Shown here piece after piece: positions 34,139 through 55,035 of a stretch of 64,000 nucleotides of DNA. The position numbers and the translations under genes are program-made. Source of the stretch: Rhodospirillaceae bacterium (GTDB lineage: Bacteria > Pseudomonadota > Alphaproteobacteria > Azospirillales > Azospirillaceae); NCBI GenBank assembly GCA_029267445.1, contig JAJUIU010000005.1, forward strand, positions 1-64,000. Reading direction: 5' to 3'. Numbering within the stretch: the stretch's first letter is position 1; every line of letters starts with the position of its first letter. The notes under the pieces were generated by a model that ran no database searches, was not told where the DNA came from, and saw nothing but the letters and a program-made list of their open reading frames with translations.

Positions 34139-34182
34139 TGTCAGTCTAGCTTGACATAATGGAATGTCAAGTCAGGCTTACG
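34139..34182. promoter_or_regulatory. bchC promoter with two PpsR/CrtJ sites 8 bp apart
   Basis: TGTCAGTCTAGCTTGACA (34139-34156) is a perfect TGT-N12-ACA site. After exactly 8 bp comes TGTCAAGTCAGGCTTACG (34165-34182), TGT-N12-ACG. On the minus strand TTGACA (34170-34165), a 16-bp spacer and TAGACT (34148-34143) form a promoter embedded in both sites. This matches the cooperative two-palindrome layout known at Rhodobacter bchC. Confidence 0.8.
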
Positions 34183-36368: not shown

Positions 36369-36411
36369 TGTAAACGTGGATTGTCACGCAGTTTGTCAAA
36401 TGATATTGACA
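36369..36411. promoter_or_regulatory. PpsR/CrtJ sites between crtE and crtD
   Basis: TGTCAAATGATATTGACA (36394-36411) is a perfect 18-bp palindrome of TGT-N12-ACA type. A degenerate partner, TGTAAACGTGGATTGTCA (36369-36386), lies 7 bp away. The pair can control both the crtE (minus) and crtD (plus) promoters. Confidence 0.75.
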
Positions 36412-39499: not shown

Positions 39500-40633
39500 T
39501 CAGGCGTTGGACAGGTTCGCCTGGGGCCCGCCATCAGAGGTATGGCGGCGATGGCGCGTTTCCATGCGCTCGGCCCGCTGAAGCCGCTCCAGCCGCTCGA
39601 ACAGGGTCAGCAGCCAGATCAGCCGCTCCTCCGCCGCGCGCAGGCGCGACCGTCCCGGTGTGGGAATGCGCCAGGCGGGGACCTGGGCGCCGACGGCCTC
39701 CACCAGATAGGCGGTCTCCGGCAGCGGCGGTTCCGCCAGCAGGTGCAGCGCCGGGTTGGCCGCGAGCGCGGATTTCAGCAGCAGCGCCAGCTTGCGCCGG
39801 CCGGGCACGACGGCCCGCCTGGACAGCATGTCCGCGCCAAGCTTCTCCACCTCCCGCCCGATCTCGCAGTAGAGGAAGCGGGCGGCGTAGATGCCGGGCC
39901 GGCAAGTCGACGGCAGCATCGCGATGCCGGCCTCCGACCGCGTGTAGAGCCCGTCGGCGACGGCGAGGAGGCGGCGGACCACGGACGCCAGGGCCGGGCT
40001 GTCGACCGGGTTCCGCATCCAGGCGTCCGGGTCGATCCCGGCCTCCCGCATCCAGGCGCGCGGCAGGTAGAGACGGCCGTTGCGCGCGTCCTCCCCCACA
40101 TCGCGGGCGATGTTGGAAAGCTGCATCGCCACCCCGAGGTCGGTCGCGCGGGCGACGGCCGCCGGATCGCGCACGCCCATCAGCAACGCCATCATGGCCC
40201 CGACCGTGCCGGCGACCCGGGCGCCGTAAGCCCGGACCTCATCGATCGTCTCGTAGCGGCGACCCTCCGCGTCCCAGGCGAAGCCTTCGATCAGCGCCTC
40301 CGGCAGGGCGCGGGGGATGGCGTAGCGGGCGGCGACGGCGGCGAAGGCGCGGTCCACCGGGCTGGGGTAGGGACGGTCGCCATAGGCGAGGTCGAGCCGA
40401 TGGCGGAGATCCTCCAGCACCTCCGGCCCCCCGCCGCCCAGGTCCACCGCGTCGTCCGCCATGCGGCAGAAGGCGTAGAGGGCGGTGGCGGCGTCCCGCA
40501 TCTGGGCCGGCAGGAACAGGGAGGCGGCATGGAAGGTGCGCGACCCCGTCCGCAGCATGGCCCGGCAGACGGCCACGTCGCTCGGGTTCGGCGGCGGCGG
40601 GACGGGCACCGTGTCAGACACGGACGGCGGCAT
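39500..40633 (-). CDS. crtB: Phytoene synthase
   Basis: 377 residues; condenses two GGPP to phytoene. Motifs FHAASLFLPAQMRDAATALYAFCRMADDAVD (first Asp motif) and MQLSNIARDVGEDARNGRLYLP (second) are diagnostic of squalene/phytoene synthases. The ATG at 40633 overlaps the crtI stop by 20 bp; longer in-frame sequence upstream is antisense-like crtI sequence without conservation. The C-terminal tail is Arg-rich. Confidence 0.95.
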   Translation of the reverse strand: MPPSVSDTVPVPPPPNPSDVAVCRAMLRTGSRTFHAASLFLPAQMRDAATALYAFCRMADDAVDLGGGGPEVLEDLRHRLDLAYGDRPYPSPVDRAFAAVAARYAIPRALPEALIEGFAWDAEGRRYETIDEVRAYGARVAGTVGAMMALLMGVRDPAAVARATDLGVAMQLSNIARDVGEDARNGRLYLPRAWMREAGIDPDAWMRNPVDSPALASVVRRLLAVADGLYTRSEAGIAMLPSTCRPGIYAARFLYCEIGREVEKLGADMLSRRAVVPGRRKLALLLKSALAANPALHLLAEPPLPETAYLVEAVGAQVPAWRIPTPGRSRLRAAEERLIWLLTLFERLERLQRAERMETRHRRHTSDGGPQANLSNA

Positions 40634-42140
40634 GCGGCACCAGCTTGTCCACGACCTTGGCGGAGGAGAGCACGCCCGGCATGCCCGCACCCGGATGCGT
40701 GCCGGCGCCGACGAGATACAGGCCCCCGACTTCCTCGCTGATGTTGTGCGGGCGGAACCACGCGCTCTGGAACAGACGGGGCTCCAGCGAGAAGGCTGCA
40801 CCGTTGAAGGACAGGAGCCGGTCGCGGAAATCCTGCGGCGTCAGCATGCGCGACGTGACGATCGCCTGCCCCAGACCGGGGAGCACCGTCTCCTCCAGCC
40901 GCTTCTGGATGGCCGCCCGGTAGGGCTCGGCCTTCGCGGCCCAGTCGGTGCCGCTGCCGAGGTGCGGCACGGGCGACAGGACGTAGAAGCTGTCGCAGCC
41001 CGGCGGGGCGAGGGACGGGTCGTTGGCCGTGGGCCGGTGCAGGTAGAGGCTGAAATCCTCGGCCAGCACCTTGTTGGTGAAGATGTCGTCCAGCAGCTCG
41101 CGGTAGCGCGGGCCCAGCACCATGGTGTGGTGGTAGACGTCGTCGAACCGCCGGTTGGTGCCGAAGTACCAGACGAACAGGCTCATCGAGTAGTTGGCGT
41201 TCTCCAGCTTCCGGTCGGTCCAGCGCTTGCGCGGGTGGTGGCCGAGAAGCTTGGAATAGGTCCAGGCCACATCGGCGTTGGACACCACGACCTCGGCGGG
41301 CAGCACCTCCCCGTCGGCGAGCCGCACGCCGGCGACCTTGCCGTTCTCCACCAGGATGCGGTCCACCTCCGCCGAGTAGCGGACGGTGTTGCCCTGGCCC
41401 TCGATCAAGGCCACCAGCCCGCGCGCGAGCGCGCCGGTGCCACCGATGGCGTAATGCACGCCATAGCGCCGCTCCAGATAGGAGATCAGGCAGTAGTAGG
41501 AGGTGGTGGTGAAGGGGTTCCCACCGATCAGCAGCGGATGGAAGCTGAAGGCGAGCCGCAGCTTGGGATGGCTGAAGAACTTGGCGACCTTGGTGTGGAC
41601 CGACTGGAAGCCGCCAAGACGAATAAGGTCGGGGGCCGACTTCAGCAGGGTGCCAAGCTCATGGAAGGGCGCGTCCGCCAGCTCGGCGAAGGCGATGCGG
41701 AAGATCTCCTCGCTCTCCATCATGAAGCGGTCGAAGCCGGCCACATCGCGCGGCTCGATCCGCGCCACCTCGGCCCGAGTCTTCTCGATATCGGAACCGC
41801 AGGAGAACTCGTCCCCGTCGTCGAACCTGATCTTGTAGAAAGGGTCGATCGGGCGGAGGTCGACATGGTCCGTCATGCGCTGGCCGCACAGGGTCCACAG
41901 CTCCTCGAACAGGTAGGGGGCGGTGACGATGGTCGGCCCGGCGTCGAAGGTGAAGCCGTCGTCCCGGTAGACGTAGCCGCGCCCGCCGGGGCCATCCAGC
42001 TTCTCGACCAGGGTGACCCGGTATCCCTTCGCACCCAGGCGGACGGCGGCGGCCAAGCCGCCGAATCCGGCGCCGATGACGATGGCGCGGGGGGCGTCGG
42101 GCGGGGCGACCGCGTTCTGGCGAGGTGTAACGTCGTGCAT
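40614..42140 (-). CDS. crtI: Phytoene desaturase
   Basis: 508-residue FAD enzyme performing three or four desaturations of phytoene. FAD-binding AIVIGAGFGGLAAAVRLGAKGY, PGGRGYVYRDDGFTFDAGPTIVTAP, and the bacterial CrtI C-terminal signature GLYLVGAGTHPGAGMPGVLSSAK are all present. The ATG at 42140 lies directly downstream of a TGT-N12-ACA operator; a more upstream ATG (42176) would place the operator inside the gene. Confidence 0.96.
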   Translation of the reverse strand: MHDVTPRQNAVAPPDAPRAIVIGAGFGGLAAAVRLGAKGYRVTLVEKLDGPGGRGYVYRDDGFTFDAGPTIVTAPYLFEELWTLCGQRMTDHVDLRPIDPFYKIRFDDGDEFSCGSDIEKTRAEVARIEPRDVAGFDRFMMESEEIFRIAFAELADAPFHELGTLLKSAPDLIRLGGFQSVHTKVAKFFSHPKLRLAFSFHPLLIGGNPFTTTSYYCLISYLERRYGVHYAIGGTGALARGLVALIEGQGNTVRYSAEVDRILVENGKVAGVRLADGEVLPAEVVVSNADVAWTYSKLLGHHPRKRWTDRKLENANYSMSLFVWYFGTNRRFDDVYHHTMVLGPRYRELLDDIFTNKVLAEDFSLYLHRPTANDPSLAPPGCDSFYVLSPVPHLGSGTDWAAKAEPYRAAIQKRLEETVLPGLGQAIVTSRMLTPQDFRDRLLSFNGAAFSLEPRLFQSAWFRPHNISEEVGGLYLVGAGTHPGAGMPGVLSSAKVVDKLVPHAAVRV

Positions 42141-42150
42141 CGCCGCGAAG

Positions 42151-42168
42151 TGTAACAGCAGGTGGACA
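42151..42168. promoter_or_regulatory. PpsR/CrtJ site upstream of crtI
   Basis: TGTAACAGCAGGTGGACA is a TGT-N12-ACA match 10 bp upstream of the crtI start codon. A second TGTAAC half-site lies at 42126-42131. Close placement to the start codon suggests a short leader. Confidence 0.55.
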
Positions 42169-42284: not shown

Positions 42285-43442
42285 ATGCGCAAGTCCATCC
42301 TCATCACCCTCGGGCGTCTGCCCAAATGCCTCGATCTGGCGCGCGCGTTCCATGGGGCCGGCTGGCGGGTGGTGGTGGCGGAGCCGTTCAACTGGCACCT
42401 GACCCGCGTCTCCAACGCGGTCGCGCGGGCCCACAGGGTGACCGCACCCCGCGTAAGCAAGCAGGGCTATCTGGACGACCTCGCCCGCATCGTGGCGGAC
42501 GAACGCATAGACCTTGTCGTGCCGGTTTCGGAGGAGACGATGCACGTCTCCCGCCTGAAGGACCGGCCGGGGTTCGCCACCCCCGTCTACTGCATGCCGC
42601 ACGAGACGGTGGTGCGGCTGCACGACAAACGGCGGTTCATCGAACTGGCCGCCGGACTGGGGCTCGACGTGCCGGAGACGGCTGCGGCCGACGCGCCGGA
42701 GGCGGCGGGCATCGCAGCGTCCGGCGACTTCATCGTCAAGCCGGTCTTCTCCTGCTCCGGCCGGGGGGTGCGGTTCCTGACGCAGGGCGAGCCGGTCCCG
42801 GACGAGACGTTCCAAGAGCCCAGCATCGTGCAGCGCCGCGTGCATGGTGACGTGCGCAGCACCTTCACCATCGCGCACCAGGGGCGGGTGATTGTGACCT
42901 CCGTCTACAGGGGCGTGGTGATGTCCGGCACCGTGGCGGTGGCGTTCGAGCGGGTGGCGGACATGGCCGCCATCGAGGCCTGGGTGGCGCGGTTCGTCGA
43001 AGGCACCGGGTACAGCGGCTTCATATCCTTCGACTTCGTGGTGGACGGGGAGGGGCGGCCCTTCGCCATCGAATGCAACCCGCGCGTCACCAGCGGCATC
43101 CATTTCCTGCGTCCCGGGGCGGTGGTGCAGGCGATGCTGGAGCCGGAAAAGCCGCTGGCGGACCCGTTCCGGGAGGAGCGGCTGTTCCAGCAGTTCTTCC
43201 CCTGCCTGACCGAGACGCAGGGGGCCATGTTCCGCCGGGGCCGCGACTTCGGCCGCAAGCTGGACGTGCTGCGGCGGGCGAAGGATGTGACCTGGAGCCC
43301 GAGCGACCCGCTGCCGCTGCTCACCATGACGCCGACCTCGTACGAGATCCTGGCGCTGTCGATCTTCAAGGGAATGACCCTGGGCGACGCGGCCACCCAG
43401 GACATCGTCTGGTATCCGGATCAGGCGGCGGCGGGCGCGTAG
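42285..43442 (+). CDS. ATP-grasp domain protein, carboxylate-amine ligase-like
   Basis: 385 residues. The N-terminal pre-ATP-grasp Rossmann region (SILITLGRLPKCLDLARAFHGAG) is followed by VVPVSEETMHVSRL, the ATP-binding stretch FIVKPVFSCSGRGVRFL near residue 150, and the metal/phosphate region FISFDFVVDGEGRPFAIECNPRVTSGIHF near residue 250 (Glu and Asn of the Mg site). This is the pattern of carbamoyl-phosphate-synthase-like ATP-grasp ligases of unknown substrate. The ATG at 42285 is chosen over upstream starts inside the crtI promoter. Its 3' end overlaps the convergent P450 gene by 22 bp. Not a normal PGC gene. Confidence 0.8.
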   Translation: MRKSILITLGRLPKCLDLARAFHGAGWRVVVAEPFNWHLTRVSNAVARAHRVTAPRVSKQGYLDDLARIVADERIDLVVPVSEETMHVSRLKDRPGFATPVYCMPHETVVRLHDKRRFIELAAGLGLDVPETAAADAPEAAGIAASGDFIVKPVFSCSGRGVRFLTQGEPVPDETFQEPSIVQRRVHGDVRSTFTIAHQGRVIVTSVYRGVVMSGTVAVAFERVADMAAIEAWVARFVEGTGYSGFISFDFVVDGEGRPFAIECNPRVTSGIHFLRPGAVVQAMLEPEKPLADPFREERLFQQFFPCLTETQGAMFRRGRDFGRKLDVLRRAKDVTWSPSDPLPLLTMTPTSYEILALSIFKGMTLGDAATQDIVWYPDQAAAGA

Positions 43443-44806
43443 GCGGCCATCCGGTCGCGCACCCGCATGATGATCTGGTCCCGGGGCCGGGTGGTGAGAC
43501 GCGCCGCGGGGAAGACCGTCTCCGGCGCGATCGTCTCGAAGTCGAAGCGTCGGACCAGCCGCGCCATGATCAGGGCGCTTTCCACCGTGGCGAAGTTGGC
43601 GCCGACGCAGACGCGCGGGCCCTGGCCGAAGGGCAGGTAGGTACCGGGCAGGATGTCCTTCTCCCGCTCCGGGCTGAAGCGGTCGGGGTCGAACACGGCA
43701 GGGTCCTTCCAGTAGTCCCGGTGCCGGTGGATGGTCCAGGGGGCCACCATGATCATGGCGCCGCGCTTCACCCGGAACGGCCCGATGGTCACCGGCTCCA
43801 GCGCCACGCGGGGCAGGAAGGTGATCGGCGGGTAGAGGCGCAGCGTCTCCTTGAAGACGTTGCGGGTGTAGACGAGGCGCCGGACATTCTCGAAGTCCAC
43901 CGGCCCGTCGCCCACCACAGCGTCGATCTCCGCCCTGACCCTGGCCAGCACGTCCCGCTGCGTGGACAGGATGAAGAAGACCCAGGTCAGCGCGCTGGCC
44001 GTGGTTTCGTGCCCCGCCAGGAAGAAGACGCCCAACTGGTCGATCAGCTCCTCCCGGCTGAAGGTCCGTCCGCTCTCCCCGTCCGTGGCCCCGACGAGGG
44101 CGCTGGCGATGTCGTTGTGGTCGGTGGTGCCCGGTGGCAGGTGCGTGTCCACCAGCGCGCCCAGGTGGCTGCGGATGCGGGCGCAGGCCTCCAGCACATG
44201 GGGGTGCTGCGGGATGTCGGCGAACGGCCGGTCGAAGATCAGCCGCTTCAGCTCCACGTTCGCCACGCTCCGCTCGAACAGGCTGAAGGCCTCGTACACG
44301 TCCTTCGCGGTCTGGGACTGGAGGGGGGAGGAGAAGACGGTGCGGGTGATGACGTCCGCCGTCAGGTGGCTCATCGTCAGGTCGAGGGAGATGGTGCCGC
44401 CACGTGCCGCGACCTCCGCCAGGTGCGCCTCGTGGTCGTCGACGGCGGCGACCATGCTGGTGAAGGCGCGGTTCAGCCGCATGTGGGAGAAGGCGGGATC
44501 GATCATCCGCCGCTGCCGGCGCCAGAGGTCGCCGCTGGAGACGAAGATGGAGTCGCCGACCAGCGGCTCGAGCGCGCCGGTCATCAGGTCGTTCTTGGGA
44601 TAGATGTCCGTCGGGTCGTTCAGGATGGGCCGCGTCAGCTCCGGCGCGTTGACGATCAGGATGGAGCGGCGGGAGTATCCCAGATAGCCCGCCGGCACCC
44701 GGTAGGCGTCGCGCGGCAGCAGGCTCAGCAGGTCCCCGCCCCGGAGCATGGCGCGGATCAGGCCGCCGAGCGGCGACAGCGGTTGCGGCCGTGGCGGCTG
44801 GTACAC
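43421..44806 (-). CDS. Cytochrome P450
   Basis: About 461 residues from a GTG at 44806 that follows an AGAGG ribosome site; a longer frame to 44938 would overlap the divergent gene. Class motifs: I-helix oxygen-activation FFLAGHETTASALTW, ExxR in FKETLRLYPP, and the haem-thiolate loop FGQGPRVCVGANFA with Cys near residue 400. It resembles soluble bacterial P450s related to fatty-acid/terpenoid hydroxylases. No ferredoxin or reductase gene is adjacent. Location between crtI and bchO suggests a carotenoid or other PGC-linked lipid substrate, which is inference only. Confidence 0.9.
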   Translation of the reverse strand: MYQPPRPQPLSPLGGLIRAMLRGGDLLSLLPRDAYRVPAGYLGYSRRSILIVNAPELTRPILNDPTDIYPKNDLMTGALEPLVGDSIFVSSGDLWRRQRRMIDPAFSHMRLNRAFTSMVAAVDDHEAHLAEVAARGGTISLDLTMSHLTADVITRTVFSSPLQSQTAKDVYEAFSLFERSVANVELKRLIFDRPFADIPQHPHVLEACARIRSHLGALVDTHLPPGTTDHNDIASALVGATDGESGRTFSREELIDQLGVFFLAGHETTASALTWVFFILSTQRDVLARVRAEIDAVVGDGPVDFENVRRLVYTRNVFKETLRLYPPITFLPRVALEPVTIGPFRVKRGAMIMVAPWTIHRHRDYWKDPAVFDPDRFSPEREKDILPGTYLPFGQGPRVCVGANFATVESALIMARLVRRFDFETIAPETVFPAARLTTRPRDQIIMRVRDRMAAYAPAAA

Positions 44807-44898
44807 GTTGACCTCTAACCCCGAATTGACCCCTAATATTCGGAGCGTACCACCCTTCCCGCAAATGGGAACGCCGTCAGTCGGCTGTCCGGGGAAAG

Positions 44899-45675
44899 GT
44901 GGGTCCTCTGGGGGCCGGCATGTTCTGGTGGTGGGCATTCCACATCTTCGTCGCCGGCCATATCGCGACCGGGGCCACCGGCCTCGTCAGCTTCTGGGGC
45001 CCGATCGTCACGAAGAAGGGCGGGAAGAAGCACCGGAGCTGGGGCCGCGTCTTCACCCGCTGCATGCTGGCGACCGGCGGCCTCGCCGTCCTGATCAGCG
45101 CCTGCACCCTGATCGCACCGGTGGAGACCCACCCGCACATCCCGGACGTGGACATGGTGCGCGGCATCTTCGGCTGGATGATGCAGTACCTCGCCATCCT
45201 GACCGTGAACCTCGCCTGGTACGGCTGGATGTGCATCGAGAACAAACGCGACCATGCCCGCAACCGCGACTGGCGGAACGTGGTCCTGCAATGGCTGGTG
45301 CTGATGACGTCGCTGAACACGGCCGTGCAGGGCTGGCTGATCGACCAGCCGCTGATGATCGGCATGGCGGTGGTGGGGATCGCCACCTTCGCCACCAACA
45401 TGCGCTTCATCTACAACCCGAAACCAGGCCCCAGCGACTGGCTGCGGGAGCACATCAAGGGGCTGGTCGGGGCCGGCATCTCCGTCTACACGGCCTTCTT
45501 CGCCTTCGGCGCCGTGCGGATCATGCCGGAACTGGCGCTGCATCCCGGCCTGTGGGCCGTGCCGCTGGTCACCGGCATCGCGCTGATCCTGTACCACTGG
45601 CGCGCGGTGGCCATCCAGTACCGGGCCCGCCTGCGCGCGGCCGAGGCGCGTACGCCGGACGCCACCGCCGCCTGA
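44899..45675 (+). CDS. Multi-helix membrane protein of unknown function
   Basis: 258 residues from a GTG at 44899 (an ATG at 44920 with GGGGG upstream is equally plausible). About seven membrane helices: FWWWAFHIFVAGHIATGATGLVSFWGPIV, MLATGGLAVLISACTLIAPVE, MMQYLAILTVNLAWYGWMCIE, LQWLVLMTSLNTAVQGWLID, MIGMAVVGIATFATNMRFIYN and two more. Several His lie in or near helices (HIFVAGHIATG, KKHRSWGR), reminiscent of DUF2306-like or haem/copper-associated membrane proteins. It is divergent from the P450 gene (under 100 bp apart) and convergent with the hydrolase gene (3 bp gap). Confidence 0.7.
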   Translation: MGPLGAGMFWWWAFHIFVAGHIATGATGLVSFWGPIVTKKGGKKHRSWGRVFTRCMLATGGLAVLISACTLIAPVETHPHIPDVDMVRGIFGWMMQYLAILTVNLAWYGWMCIENKRDHARNRDWRNVVLQWLVLMTSLNTAVQGWLIDQPLMIGMAVVGIATFATNMRFIYNPKPGPSDWLREHIKGLVGAGISVYTAFFAFGAVRIMPELALHPGLWAVPLVTGIALILYHWRAVAIQYRARLRAAEARTPDATAA

Positions 45676-45678
45676 GCC

Positions 45679-46623
45679 TCAGGCCGCGGCCGTGCGGGCC
45701 TCCGCCGCCTGCAGGAAGGCGTGGTAGTCGGCCAGGAACTCGCCCGGCACCTCGAAATGGACCAGCGCCCCGGTCGGGTAGGCCTTCACGGTCCAGTTCG
45801 GCCGGTCCTTCAGCCAGCCGGTGCCGCCGAAATTCTTGAAGTCGCCCTTGGTCGCGTGGGACAGCCAGACGGGCATGCGCAGCGTCTCGTAGACGGTGCG
45901 GATGTCCATGCTGAACAGGCGGCCCGACAGGAAGGCCAGTGGCGCGTAGCGCGCACCCGGCTGGTGGGAGGAGATGTCGTCGTAGTCGGCGAGGCCCCGG
46001 TCCCAGTTGTCCGACCCCCAGGTGCGCTTCAGGAAGTAGCGGATGCTCTTCGGGCTCGCCAGCGTGTCGAACAGCCACTGGCTCCAGGGCTTCCAGCTCA
46101 GCGCCTTGTGGATGCCGGGGATCTCCCGCGTGCTGCCGGGCGGCTTGCGCTTGGCGGCACCCAGGCGGGTGAAGCCGGTGGGTGTGACGAGCGCCAGGGA
46201 GCGGAACCGCTCCGGACGCTCCATCGCGGCGCGGGCCAGGAACTCCGACGACAGCGACAGGGCGCAGGCGTCCACGGGCTCGCTGCCATACTCCTCGGCG
46301 ATCACGTCCAGCATGTCGTGGACGCTGTCGGTGTAGAGGCGCGGGTCGTAGTGGCGGTCCGAGCGTTCGGAGATGCCGAAGCCCGGCAGGTCGGGCGCGT
46401 AGACGCGGCGGGTGCCGGTCATGCCCTCGAAGATCGGCTTCACCTCGTAGGCGTTGGCGGCGGCGTTGATGCTGTGGATCAGCAGAAGCGGCCGGCCCTC
46501 CCCGGCGAGGTAGTAGCCGATGCGGCCGGCGCGGCCATGGGTCTGCAGGCGCTCCCCCGGCAGGGCGGGCGGCATGGTGGAGAAGGCGTCGCGGTCGAGG
46601 CTGGTGCGGCTGGCGGCGTCCAT
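45679..46623 (-). CDS. Alpha/beta hydrolase with atypical nucleophile elbow
   Basis: 314 residues. The fold is seen from IGYYLAGEGRPLLLIHSINAAANAYE (oxyanion region) and VYAPDLPGFGISERSDRHYDP. The nucleophile elbow reads ALSLSSEF; the usual G-x-S-x-G glycines are replaced by Ala and Ser but the catalytic Ser (about 124) stays. A candidate His is in LVHFEVPGEFL. GGAG lies before the ATG. It is 104 bp downstream of bchO, another alpha/beta hydrolase, with which it shares HGxG-type topology but little else. Substrate unknown. Confidence 0.75.
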   Translation of the reverse strand: MDAASRTSLDRDAFSTMPPALPGERLQTHGRAGRIGYYLAGEGRPLLLIHSINAAANAYEVKPIFEGMTGTRRVYAPDLPGFGISERSDRHYDPRLYTDSVHDMLDVIAEEYGSEPVDACALSLSSEFLARAAMERPERFRSLALVTPTGFTRLGAAKRKPPGSTREIPGIHKALSWKPWSQWLFDTLASPKSIRYFLKRTWGSDNWDRGLADYDDISSHQPGARYAPLAFLSGRLFSMDIRTVYETLRMPVWLSHATKGDFKNFGGTGWLKDRPNWTVKAYPTGALVHFEVPGEFLADYHAFLQAAEARTAAA

Positions 46624-46727: not shown

Positions 46728-47678
46728 CTAGATGAGGCCTGTTTCGCGCGCCACGGACAGCGCGAGTTCGGCGGCGGTCTCCGGCGCCTCCTCATGCGCC
46801 AGGTGCCCCAGCCCCGGCAGCGGCACGATCCGGGCGGCGGGCAGGCGGGCGCGGACGCGGTCGGCCTGTGCCGGGGGAATGGCGGTGTCCGCCCCGGCCG
46901 CGACGAGCACGAGCTGCGGGGCGAGCCCCTGCAGGTCGTGCAGCAGCGGGACGAGGTCCCAGTTCGCCATCATGCCCAGGGCCGCCTGCACGTGGCGCGG
47001 ATTGCGCAGCAGGCGCGCGTAGAGTTCCACGCCACGCCGGTCCAGGCGGGAGCCCGTGTTCCGGATCAGCCGCTCCACCGAATGCCGGTCGCCGGCCTGC
47101 CACGCGAACAGGCGCGGCACCAGCGGATTCACGAACAGCAGCTTGGCGAGGCCGCTGAAGATGTGGCTGTGCCCGTCGCGGAAGGGCAGGAAGGCGCCGT
47201 TCAACGAGACGATCGCCCGGGGGCGGATGGCGCCATCCAGCGCCATGCGGGTCAGGATCGCCGCACCGGCGGAATGGCCGACGGCGAGCTCCGGGTCCAG
47301 CCCCAGTGTGCGCAGCAGCCCGTCTAGCAGGCGGGCCATGCCGGGCAGGGACATGCGGTGGGCGGGGGCGGCGTCGGTGAAGCCGTGTCCCGGCAGGTCG
47401 GGTGCCACGACCGTGAAATGCCGCGCCAGCCAGGGGGCGAGATCGCGCCAGGAATGGGTGGCGGCCCCGGTGCCGTGGACCAGCAGCAGGACCGGCCCCT
47501 TGCCCATGACCTGCACGTGCCAGCGCAGGCCCATGGCGGGGACGAAGCGGCTCGCCTCCCGGTTCGGCCAGTCGCGCCCGTCGCGCGCCCAGTCCTCCCC
47601 GCCCTCCATGCTCATGGAAGCGCCTGCGCGCGGACGGTCGGGGCCGAGCGCCCCGGGGATGCTGGCCGCCCGGCTCAT
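46728..47678 (-). CDS. bchO: BchO, putative magnesium chelatase accessory alpha/beta hydrolase
   Basis: 316 residues. HGTGAATHSWRDLAPWLARHF (oxyanion loop), PDLPGHGFTDAAPAHRMSLP and the nucleophile elbow AVGHSAGAAILTRMAL near residue 140 are the standard BchO pattern; the catalytic His is in LPGLGHLAHEE. In other purple bacteria bchO follows bchI-bchD and is thought to assist Mg chelation. The ATG overlaps the bchD stop. Confidence 0.92.
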   Translation of the reverse strand: MSRAASIPGALGPDRPRAGASMSMEGGEDWARDGRDWPNREASRFVPAMGLRWHVQVMGKGPVLLLVHGTGAATHSWRDLAPWLARHFTVVAPDLPGHGFTDAAPAHRMSLPGMARLLDGLLRTLGLDPELAVGHSAGAAILTRMALDGAIRPRAIVSLNGAFLPFRDGHSHIFSGLAKLLFVNPLVPRLFAWQAGDRHSVERLIRNTGSRLDRRGVELYARLLRNPRHVQAALGMMANWDLVPLLHDLQGLAPQLVLVAAGADTAIPPAQADRVRARLPAARIVPLPGLGHLAHEEAPETAAELALSVARETGLI

Positions 47679-54274: not shown

Positions 54275-54318
54275 CGACATTTTCGTCTGACACATGATAG
54301 TGTCAACTACAATTTACA
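54275..54318. promoter_or_regulatory. PpsR/CrtJ operator between bchG and idi
   Basis: TGTCAACTACAATTTACA (54301-54318) is a full TGT-N12-ACA site. Eight bp away a weaker 18-mer, CGACATTTTCGTCTGACA (54275-54292), keeps only one good half. Between and across them lies a perfect 18-bp inverted repeat TGACACATGATAGTGTCA (54289-54306). TTGACA on the minus strand (54306-54301) could be the bchG -35, which would imply a very short leader. Confidence 0.65.
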
Positions 54319-54471: not shown

Positions 54472-55035
54472 ATGAGCCCATACGACCCGTCCGAGCCCCG
54501 GATCGCTGAGAGCGCCGAACAGGTGATCCTCGTCGATGCCGACGACCGGCCCGTGGGAACGGCGCCGAAGCTGGAGGCGCATCGGCGCGCCCTGATGCAC
54601 CGCGCCTTCTCCGTGATCGTGCGTGACGGAGCCGGACGGCTGTTGCTGCAGCGCCGGGCGCGGGGCAAGTACCATTCACCCGGCCTTTGGTCGAACAGCT
54701 GCTGCGGGCACCCCCGGCCGGGCGAGGATCTGGCCGCCGGCGCCGGCCGAAGGCTGCATGAGGAGCTGGGCTTCAGCTGTCCTCTGACACGGGTGGGGCG
54801 GCTGCATTACGCCGTCGATTTCCAGAACGGACTGTCCGAGAACGAGGTCGTCACCCTGTTCGTCGGCCGCCACGAGGGCGCCATCCCGTTCGACCCGGCC
54901 GAGGTGGAGGAGGTGGCCTGGGTCGCGCTGCCGGACCTGCAGGCCGGCATCGCCGAACGGCCGAACGACTACACATACTGGTTCCGCCTTTACGTGACGG
55001 AGCATCTGGAGATGATGCGCGCCGGCCTCGGCTGA
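54472..55035 (+). CDS. idi: Isopentenyl-diphosphate delta-isomerase, type 1
   Basis: 187-residue Nudix-fold enzyme interconverting IPP and DMAPP, the precursors of GGPP. HRAFSVIVRDGAGRLLLQRRA, LWSNSCCGHPRPGEDLAAGAGRRLHEELGFSC (catalytic Cys and metal His/Glu) and the second catalytic Glu region SENEVVTLFVGRHEG are present. GGGAG precedes the ATG. PGC location divergent from bchG parallels Rhodobacter, where an idi gene lies near bchP. Confidence 0.94.
   Translation: MSPYDPSEPRIAESAEQVILVDADDRPVGTAPKLEAHRRALMHRAFSVIVRDGAGRLLLQRRARGKYHSPGLWSNSCCGHPRPGEDLAAGAGRRLHEELGFSCPLTRVGRLHYAVDFQNGLSENEVVTLFVGRHEGAIPFDPAEVEEVAWVALPDLQAGIAERPNDYTYWFRLYVTEHLEMMRAGLG

Follow-up and report, generated by a model that had tools for sequence, protein, structure and literature searches.

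Few bacterial gene sets have been catalogued as thoroughly as photosynthesis gene clusters (PGCs), and carotenoid tailoring encoded within them is a kind of system already known. CrtA (spheroidene monooxygenase; NCBIfam NF045923), whose genes also occur in PGCs, uses O2 to oxidise the end groups of acyclic carotenoids; gemmatoxanthin from Gemmatimonas phototrophica, which has a proteobacterial-type PGC, is an acyclic C40 carotenoid with both an aldehyde and a terminal carboxyl (PMC8342508), showing that carboxylated acyclic carotenoids exist in phototrophs, and its oxidases have not been identified. Here we analysed a 64,000-nucleotide stretch of DNA from a Rhodospirillaceae bacterium (contig JAJUIU010000005.1; 'the window' throughout), whose PGC contains genes for a cytochrome P450, a seven-helix membrane protein and an ATP-grasp ligase. 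These proteins are not CrtA homologues, and the oxidation proposed for them resembles that of CrtA: we think they probably form an O2-dependent tailoring module for the acyclic carotenoid (spirilloxanthin series) of the photosynthetic apparatus, mostly in aerobic phototrophs.

Well catalogued as PGCs are, this module, present in those of two phyla, appears to be unnamed as a unit in the open literature. The open papers that we found on PGC composition and purple-bacterial carotenoid genes do not name the set (PMC3176799, PMC10604819, PMC10576062, PMC12654162, PMC10715153), and we found no open-licence paper describing a PGC-linked P450 and ATP-grasp set; subscription literature lay outside the scope of this search, and an earlier mention is possible.

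A P450 and a membrane protein form a conserved module in phototroph genomes

An alignment of the membrane protein, scanned against one genome per species (84,980 species), returned 281 relatives; locus counts below refer to the best 80, many of which lie on short or cut contigs, limiting the neighbour counts. The P450 adjoins the membrane protein in 79 of these 80 loci and the ATP-grasp gene does so in 68, whereas a homologue of the fourth gene of the window locus, an alpha/beta hydrolase, occurs in just four (L020, L023, L025 and L079; 34–52% identical). The P450 and membrane protein, usually with the ATP-grasp enzyme, are thus a conserved linked module. A preliminary description of this DNA had seen a four-gene cassette; its first three members hold together, but the hydrolase is too rare to be a core member, and the unit is one of three genes. 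None of the four is a chance open reading frame (ORF), since they have orthologues of 40–69% identity that are conserved as a set. ORF clustering over the 80 loci gave no further universal partner among the recurring neighbours.

Photosynthesis-cluster genes are in reach of the module in 72 of the 80 loci, so the orthologues do not lie mostly outside PGCs, and the long residence in such clusters that had been suggested from the window is borne out. A type II reaction centre gene (PF00124) was found in 50 of the 51 module genomes searched, compared with 26 of 385 sampled Alphaproteobacteria. The module spans Alphaproteobacteria, Gammaproteobacteria and Myxococcota, with carriers in Roseomonadaceae, Hyphomicrobium, Stappiaceae, Hyphomonadaceae, Halieaceae (strain NOR5-3), other Gammaproteobacteria and two metagenome-assembled genomes (MAGs) of Myxococcota.

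Closer to the window, one other genome of its GTDB family, G053, from a different genus, has the membrane protein, on a contig with the order ATP-grasp, P450, membrane protein, crtI, crtB, crtC, crtD. Across the 385-genome alphaproteobacterial sample, the membrane protein was found at E <1e-40 in three genomes, all phototrophs: that of the window (G000), G208 and G225. G208, from a second order, keeps the P450 and membrane protein beside bchI, and in the clade of L038, L039 and L058 the same pair stands beside bchI, bchD, bchO and crtI, with the ATP-grasp gene not in reach. The relative in G225 (L010:9759-10472) has 35% identity and lies about 170 kb from the puf genes, without the P450; the family of G225 has two other sampled phototrophs.

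The locus in the window

The genes and the regulatory-type site of the locus are as follows (window coordinates).

40614..42140, minus strand: crtI, flanking gene; NCBIfam crtI_fam, E 3.3e-189
42151..42168, unstranded: PpsR/CrtJ-type site TGT-N12-ACA between crtI and the ATP-grasp gene; pattern scan
42285..43442, plus strand: ATP-grasp ligase gene, third module member; 385 amino acids; Pfam ATP-grasp_3, E 7.5e-9
43421..44806, minus strand: cytochrome P450 gene; Pfam p450 (PF00067), E 1.3e-74
44920..45675, plus strand: seven-helix membrane protein gene; 251 amino acids; weak likeness to DUF2306
45679..46623, minus strand: alpha/beta hydrolase-like gene, optional accessory; Abhydrolase_1, E 5.3e-11
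46728..47678, minus strand: bchO, flanking gene; NCBIfam bchO, E 9.3e-93, above cut-off, 310 bits

All four ORFs between crtI and bchO are intact and lie where the preliminary description had placed them. Its account of the spacing proved exact for the convergent pairs, with an overlap of 22 bp between the ATP-grasp and P450 genes and a gap of 3 bp between the membrane protein and hydrolase genes, but not for the divergent starts, given as less than 100 bp apart: these measure 113 bp between the P450 GTG (44806) and the membrane protein ATG (44920), and 144 bp between the crtI ATG (42140) and the ATP-grasp ATG (42285). Base composition is local, as it had stated (GC 0.68–0.71 and, at third codon positions, 0.92–0.97, the same as in neighbouring genes). 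The surrounding photosynthesis cluster is real, with pufL, pufM, bchF, bchH, bchY, bchP, crtB, crtC and crtD recognised, and crtA is indeed missing, both from the window and from the whole 4.23-Mb genome.

Carotenoid genes adjoin the module, and its P450 family also follows crtA

Carotenoid genes nearly always adjoin the module. The carotenoid role and the oxygenating P450 that had been suggested for the window are both supported. Within 1.5 kb, the flanking genes in the 80 loci are crtD (45), crtB (17), crtI (14) and crtC (14), as against bchI (4) and bchO (2), and bch or puf genes are immediate flanks in only about seven cases. The crtD gene directly follows the membrane protein gene, on the same strand and within 500 bp, in 45 of the 80.

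A CrtA protein query had no match in any of the 49 module genomes searched, that of the window included; the NCBIfam model likewise detected no CrtA in G000, G053 or G208, and no CrtA homologue is present among the four window genes. CrtA occurs in just 4 of the 28 genomes of the phototroph set, so that failing to find it in 49 related genomes hints at exclusion without proving it; as relatives are not independent observations, we attach no p-value to this count.

Two Alphaproteobacteria without the membrane protein, G176 and G185, encode close relatives of the P450, each with crtA directly upstream, and the family of G185 contributes four further P450s, each after crtA; this arrangement thus holds for each of the six module-free genomes that have a close P450. 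Since the P450 family coexists with CrtA in these six, the P450 itself is not the replacement for CrtA: it is the membrane protein and the ligase, not the P450, that alternate with CrtA. The earlier suggestion of a P450 in place of crtA is supported as regards carotenoid oxygenation, but plain replacement is weakened by this coexistence and is too simple. The ATP-grasp gene is absent from all crtA–P450 genomes and, genome-wide, from G208, which makes the P450 and membrane protein the inner core of the module. The two-gene crtA–P450 unit is found at L103:8895-11110, at L104:8254-10366 and at L114-L117; that of L104 is within a PGC, between bchI and crtI.

The three module proteins

The P450 scores 252 bits against PF00067, placing it in the superfamily, and its heme-ligand cysteine C411 and ExxR pair E331/R334 are invariant across 58 orthologues. 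Its likeliest start is the GTG at 44806, with an AGAGG-like site upstream; an in-frame upstream ATG at 44938 would lengthen the ORF. In a P450 tree, the module P450s form one group (support 100/99). The crtA-linked P450s are its closest neighbours and other P450s are distant, with long branches leaving the precise branching of the crtA-linked proteins uncertain. The closest solved P450 is the carotene hydroxylase LUT5/CYP97A3 (188 bits for the window protein, 242 bits for the 58-orthologue profile).

The membrane protein of the window has no Pfam or NCBIfam match at 1e-3. A weak match to DUF2306 (PF10067) covers the first helices in 51 of 70 members (best E 3.7e-5); the window protein itself reaches 11.8 bits, against a gathering cut-off of 31.6. 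Its AlphaFold2 model (predicted local distance difference test score, pLDDT, 94) has seven long helices, in agreement with the roughly seven counted in the preliminary description, and H14, H38, H71 and H178 are invariant in 69 orthologues. A fold search of the PDB gave nothing convincing (best Foldseek E 0.14; VIA-align Z ≤8.4, noise level for helical bundles); Dcytb, of the cytochrome b561 type, came up at Z 6.6 among this noise and was not used.

The ligase matches ATP-grasp_3 above the Pfam cut-off and has the ATP-grasp fold and motif; its NCBIfam match, PRK06849 'hypothetical protein' (E 1.3e-76), is below cut-off. Three residues of an IECNPR motif (E263, N265 and R267), together with K152 and K115, are invariant in 55 orthologues. 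The nearest solved folds to its model (pLDDT 95) are PylC (E 1e-16), an L-amino acid ligase and PurK, although identity to PylC and L-amino acid ligases is only 14–19%, with a TM-score of about 0.55. The motif and these nearest folds suggest that the enzyme couples a carboxylate, as an acyl phosphate, to a nucleophile.

Regulatory sites and inheritance

In 17 of 73 loci, a PpsR/CrtJ-type site (TGT-N12-ACA) falls in the divergent gap between the P450 and membrane protein genes, compared with a mean of 2.5 (maximum 8) in dinucleotide shuffles. Several of these sites are canonical, for example TGTCAATTTAAACTGACA, though they are confined to a few lineages. Close to the window module there is just one such site, at 42151-42168; the window as a whole has nine matches against 4.3 expected, which is weak alone. 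Three canonical-looking PpsR/CrtJ sites are found elsewhere in the window cluster, at 34139-34156, 36394-36411 and 54301-54318.

Pairwise distances for the three module proteins correlate with those for crtI, crtB, crtC and bchO at r 0.83–0.94, as tightly as those genes track one another (0.80–0.94), and this fits inheritance of the module together with the photosynthesis cluster.

Proposed function and alternatives

The carotenoid tailoring proposed above draws on the linkage to crt genes, the restriction to genomes with a type II reaction centre, the absence of CrtA and the related P450s behind crtA. The P450 tree, the PpsR-type sites in the P450/membrane gap, the distance correlations and the nearest folds of the ligase also speak for it. 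The P450 would oxidise a psi end group of the carotenoid with O2, in the C-1 to C-4 region or at the methyls; this end group is the candidate target because the neighbours CrtD and CrtC and the alternative partner CrtA work on it. The membrane protein, with its four invariant histidines, may be the membrane partner of the P450, serving either as electron donor or as an oxidase that substitutes for CrtA. The ATP-grasp enzyme would then activate a carboxylate as an acyl phosphate and couple it to an amine or hydroxyl, yielding a polar end-group conjugate; gemmatoxanthin, in contrast, would as a free acid need no ligase. The alpha/beta hydrolase would perform optional trimming in a small number of lineages, that of the window included.

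A more specific version, which we offer only tentatively, is that the spirilloxanthin pathway of aerobic phototrophs has a widespread, hitherto undescribed branch, encoded by the module, in which the P450 and a new seven-helix redox partner or oxidase would generate an end-group acid that the ATP-grasp enzyme conjugates, for example to an amino acid, to give a polar light-harvesting carotenoid. Such a carotenoid would absorb exactly as spirilloxanthin does, which would explain why it has been overlooked. If carotenoid tailoring is correct, the pigment lists of many aerobic phototrophs, for example in Roseomonadaceae, Halieaceae and Stappiaceae, are incomplete, and O2-dependent carotenoid chemistry could serve as a marker of the transition between anaerobic purple bacteria and aerobic phototrophs. 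Because the module alternates with CrtA, its function is directly testable.

Several observations weigh against carotenoid tailoring. In cultured NOR5/OM60 bacteria, bacteriochlorophyll a and spirilloxanthin are reported to be the only pigments (PMC3679898, PMC2654016); the module is present in the NOR5-3 genome (L045), and the membrane protein in one more genome of its genus. These spectra rule out a large conjugated change in this group and are the strongest constraint against a simple ketolase; a polar end-group change outside the polyene would escape detection. Elioraea, likewise of the Acetobacteraceae, also makes spirilloxanthin (PMC8781829), a comparison by family only. The likeness of the P450 to CYP97A3 is not specific: another P450 of the same genome, serving as a control, and a crtA-linked P450 match LUT5 second best, so that we count this likeness as weak support and rejected it as proof of a carotenoid substrate. 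Moreover, CYP97 proteins are plant enzymes acting on rings, whereas the substrate of the module P450 would be acyclic. The P450 has no redox-partner gene next to it; the ligase is missing throughout the G208 genome, which is of the same kind as the L038/L039/L058 clade; and no PGC gene was found in reach at the Halieaceae loci L040, L052, L062 and L078, nor at L054.

Among the rival explanations, the P450 and/or the membrane protein could be a C-2 ketolase or hydroxylase of spirilloxanthin that replaces spheroidene monooxygenase, with the ATP-grasp enzyme doing something separate. The lack of CrtA in 49 of 49 module genomes, the position of the membrane protein beside the P450, which CrtA takes in six other genomes, and the adjacency of crtD to the membrane protein gene all speak for such a stand-in. 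However, the spirilloxanthin spectrum would shift if a 2-keto group were in conjugation with the 3,4 double bond. We consider this explanation unlikely, given the plain spirilloxanthin spectra of the NOR5 clade (PMC3679898), a ligase that would be superfluous for a ketolase and a P450 family that coexists with CrtA. Alternatively, the module might modify another isoprenoid of the photosynthetic membrane, whether the bacteriochlorophyll tail, a quinone, a hopanoid or a polar lipid: P450s and ATP-grasp enzymes belong to versatile families, a phototroph-only distribution would suit bacteriochlorophyll equally well, and bchI or bchO adjoins the module in some loci. With crt genes as immediate neighbours in about nine of ten cases and a carotenoid enzyme, CrtA, as the alternative partner of the P450, a different isoprenoid substrate seems rather improbable.

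We give little credence to a role in carotenoid damage or signalling, in which the P450 would attack photo-oxidised carotenoids or apocarotenoids and the ligase would conjugate the resulting acid for disposal or signalling. The carriers are exposed to oxygen and light, and an ATP-grasp fold together with a hydrolase would suit conjugation and deconjugation of an acid, but such a role does not require a location inside the crt block, and no carotenoid-cleavage gene was spotted by eye among the clustered recurring neighbours, which were not scanned against family models. That the genes are unrelated and merely carried along in the cluster, as their alternating strands and differing order between lineages might imply, is hardly credible: the genes stay together across two phyla despite rearrangement, pair in 79 of 80 loci and diverge in a correlated manner, all of which argues strongly against it.

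The accessory hydrolase and other observations

The putative hydrolase of the window matches Abhydrolase_1 above cut-off. Its nucleophile elbow reads ALSLS, not GxSxG, and S123 and H289 are conserved in five homologues. We considered whether this gene (45679-46623) could be BchO, but it scores 18.5 bits against a cut-off of 172.55, and bchO proper is the gene that follows (46728-47678).

Fourteen module loci share a conserved gene of about 430 amino acids, which in L060 (12226-13506) lies between crtI and bchO; we presume that it resembles DUF3422. Six loci (L033, L053, L058, L080, L082 and L087) come from public MAG records titled Klebsiella pneumoniae or Asaia bogorensis; these organism names look wrong, because the loci carry proteobacterial photosynthesis-cluster or module genes. 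Finally, the photosynthesis cluster of the window includes an isopentenyl-diphosphate isomerase gene at 54472-55035.

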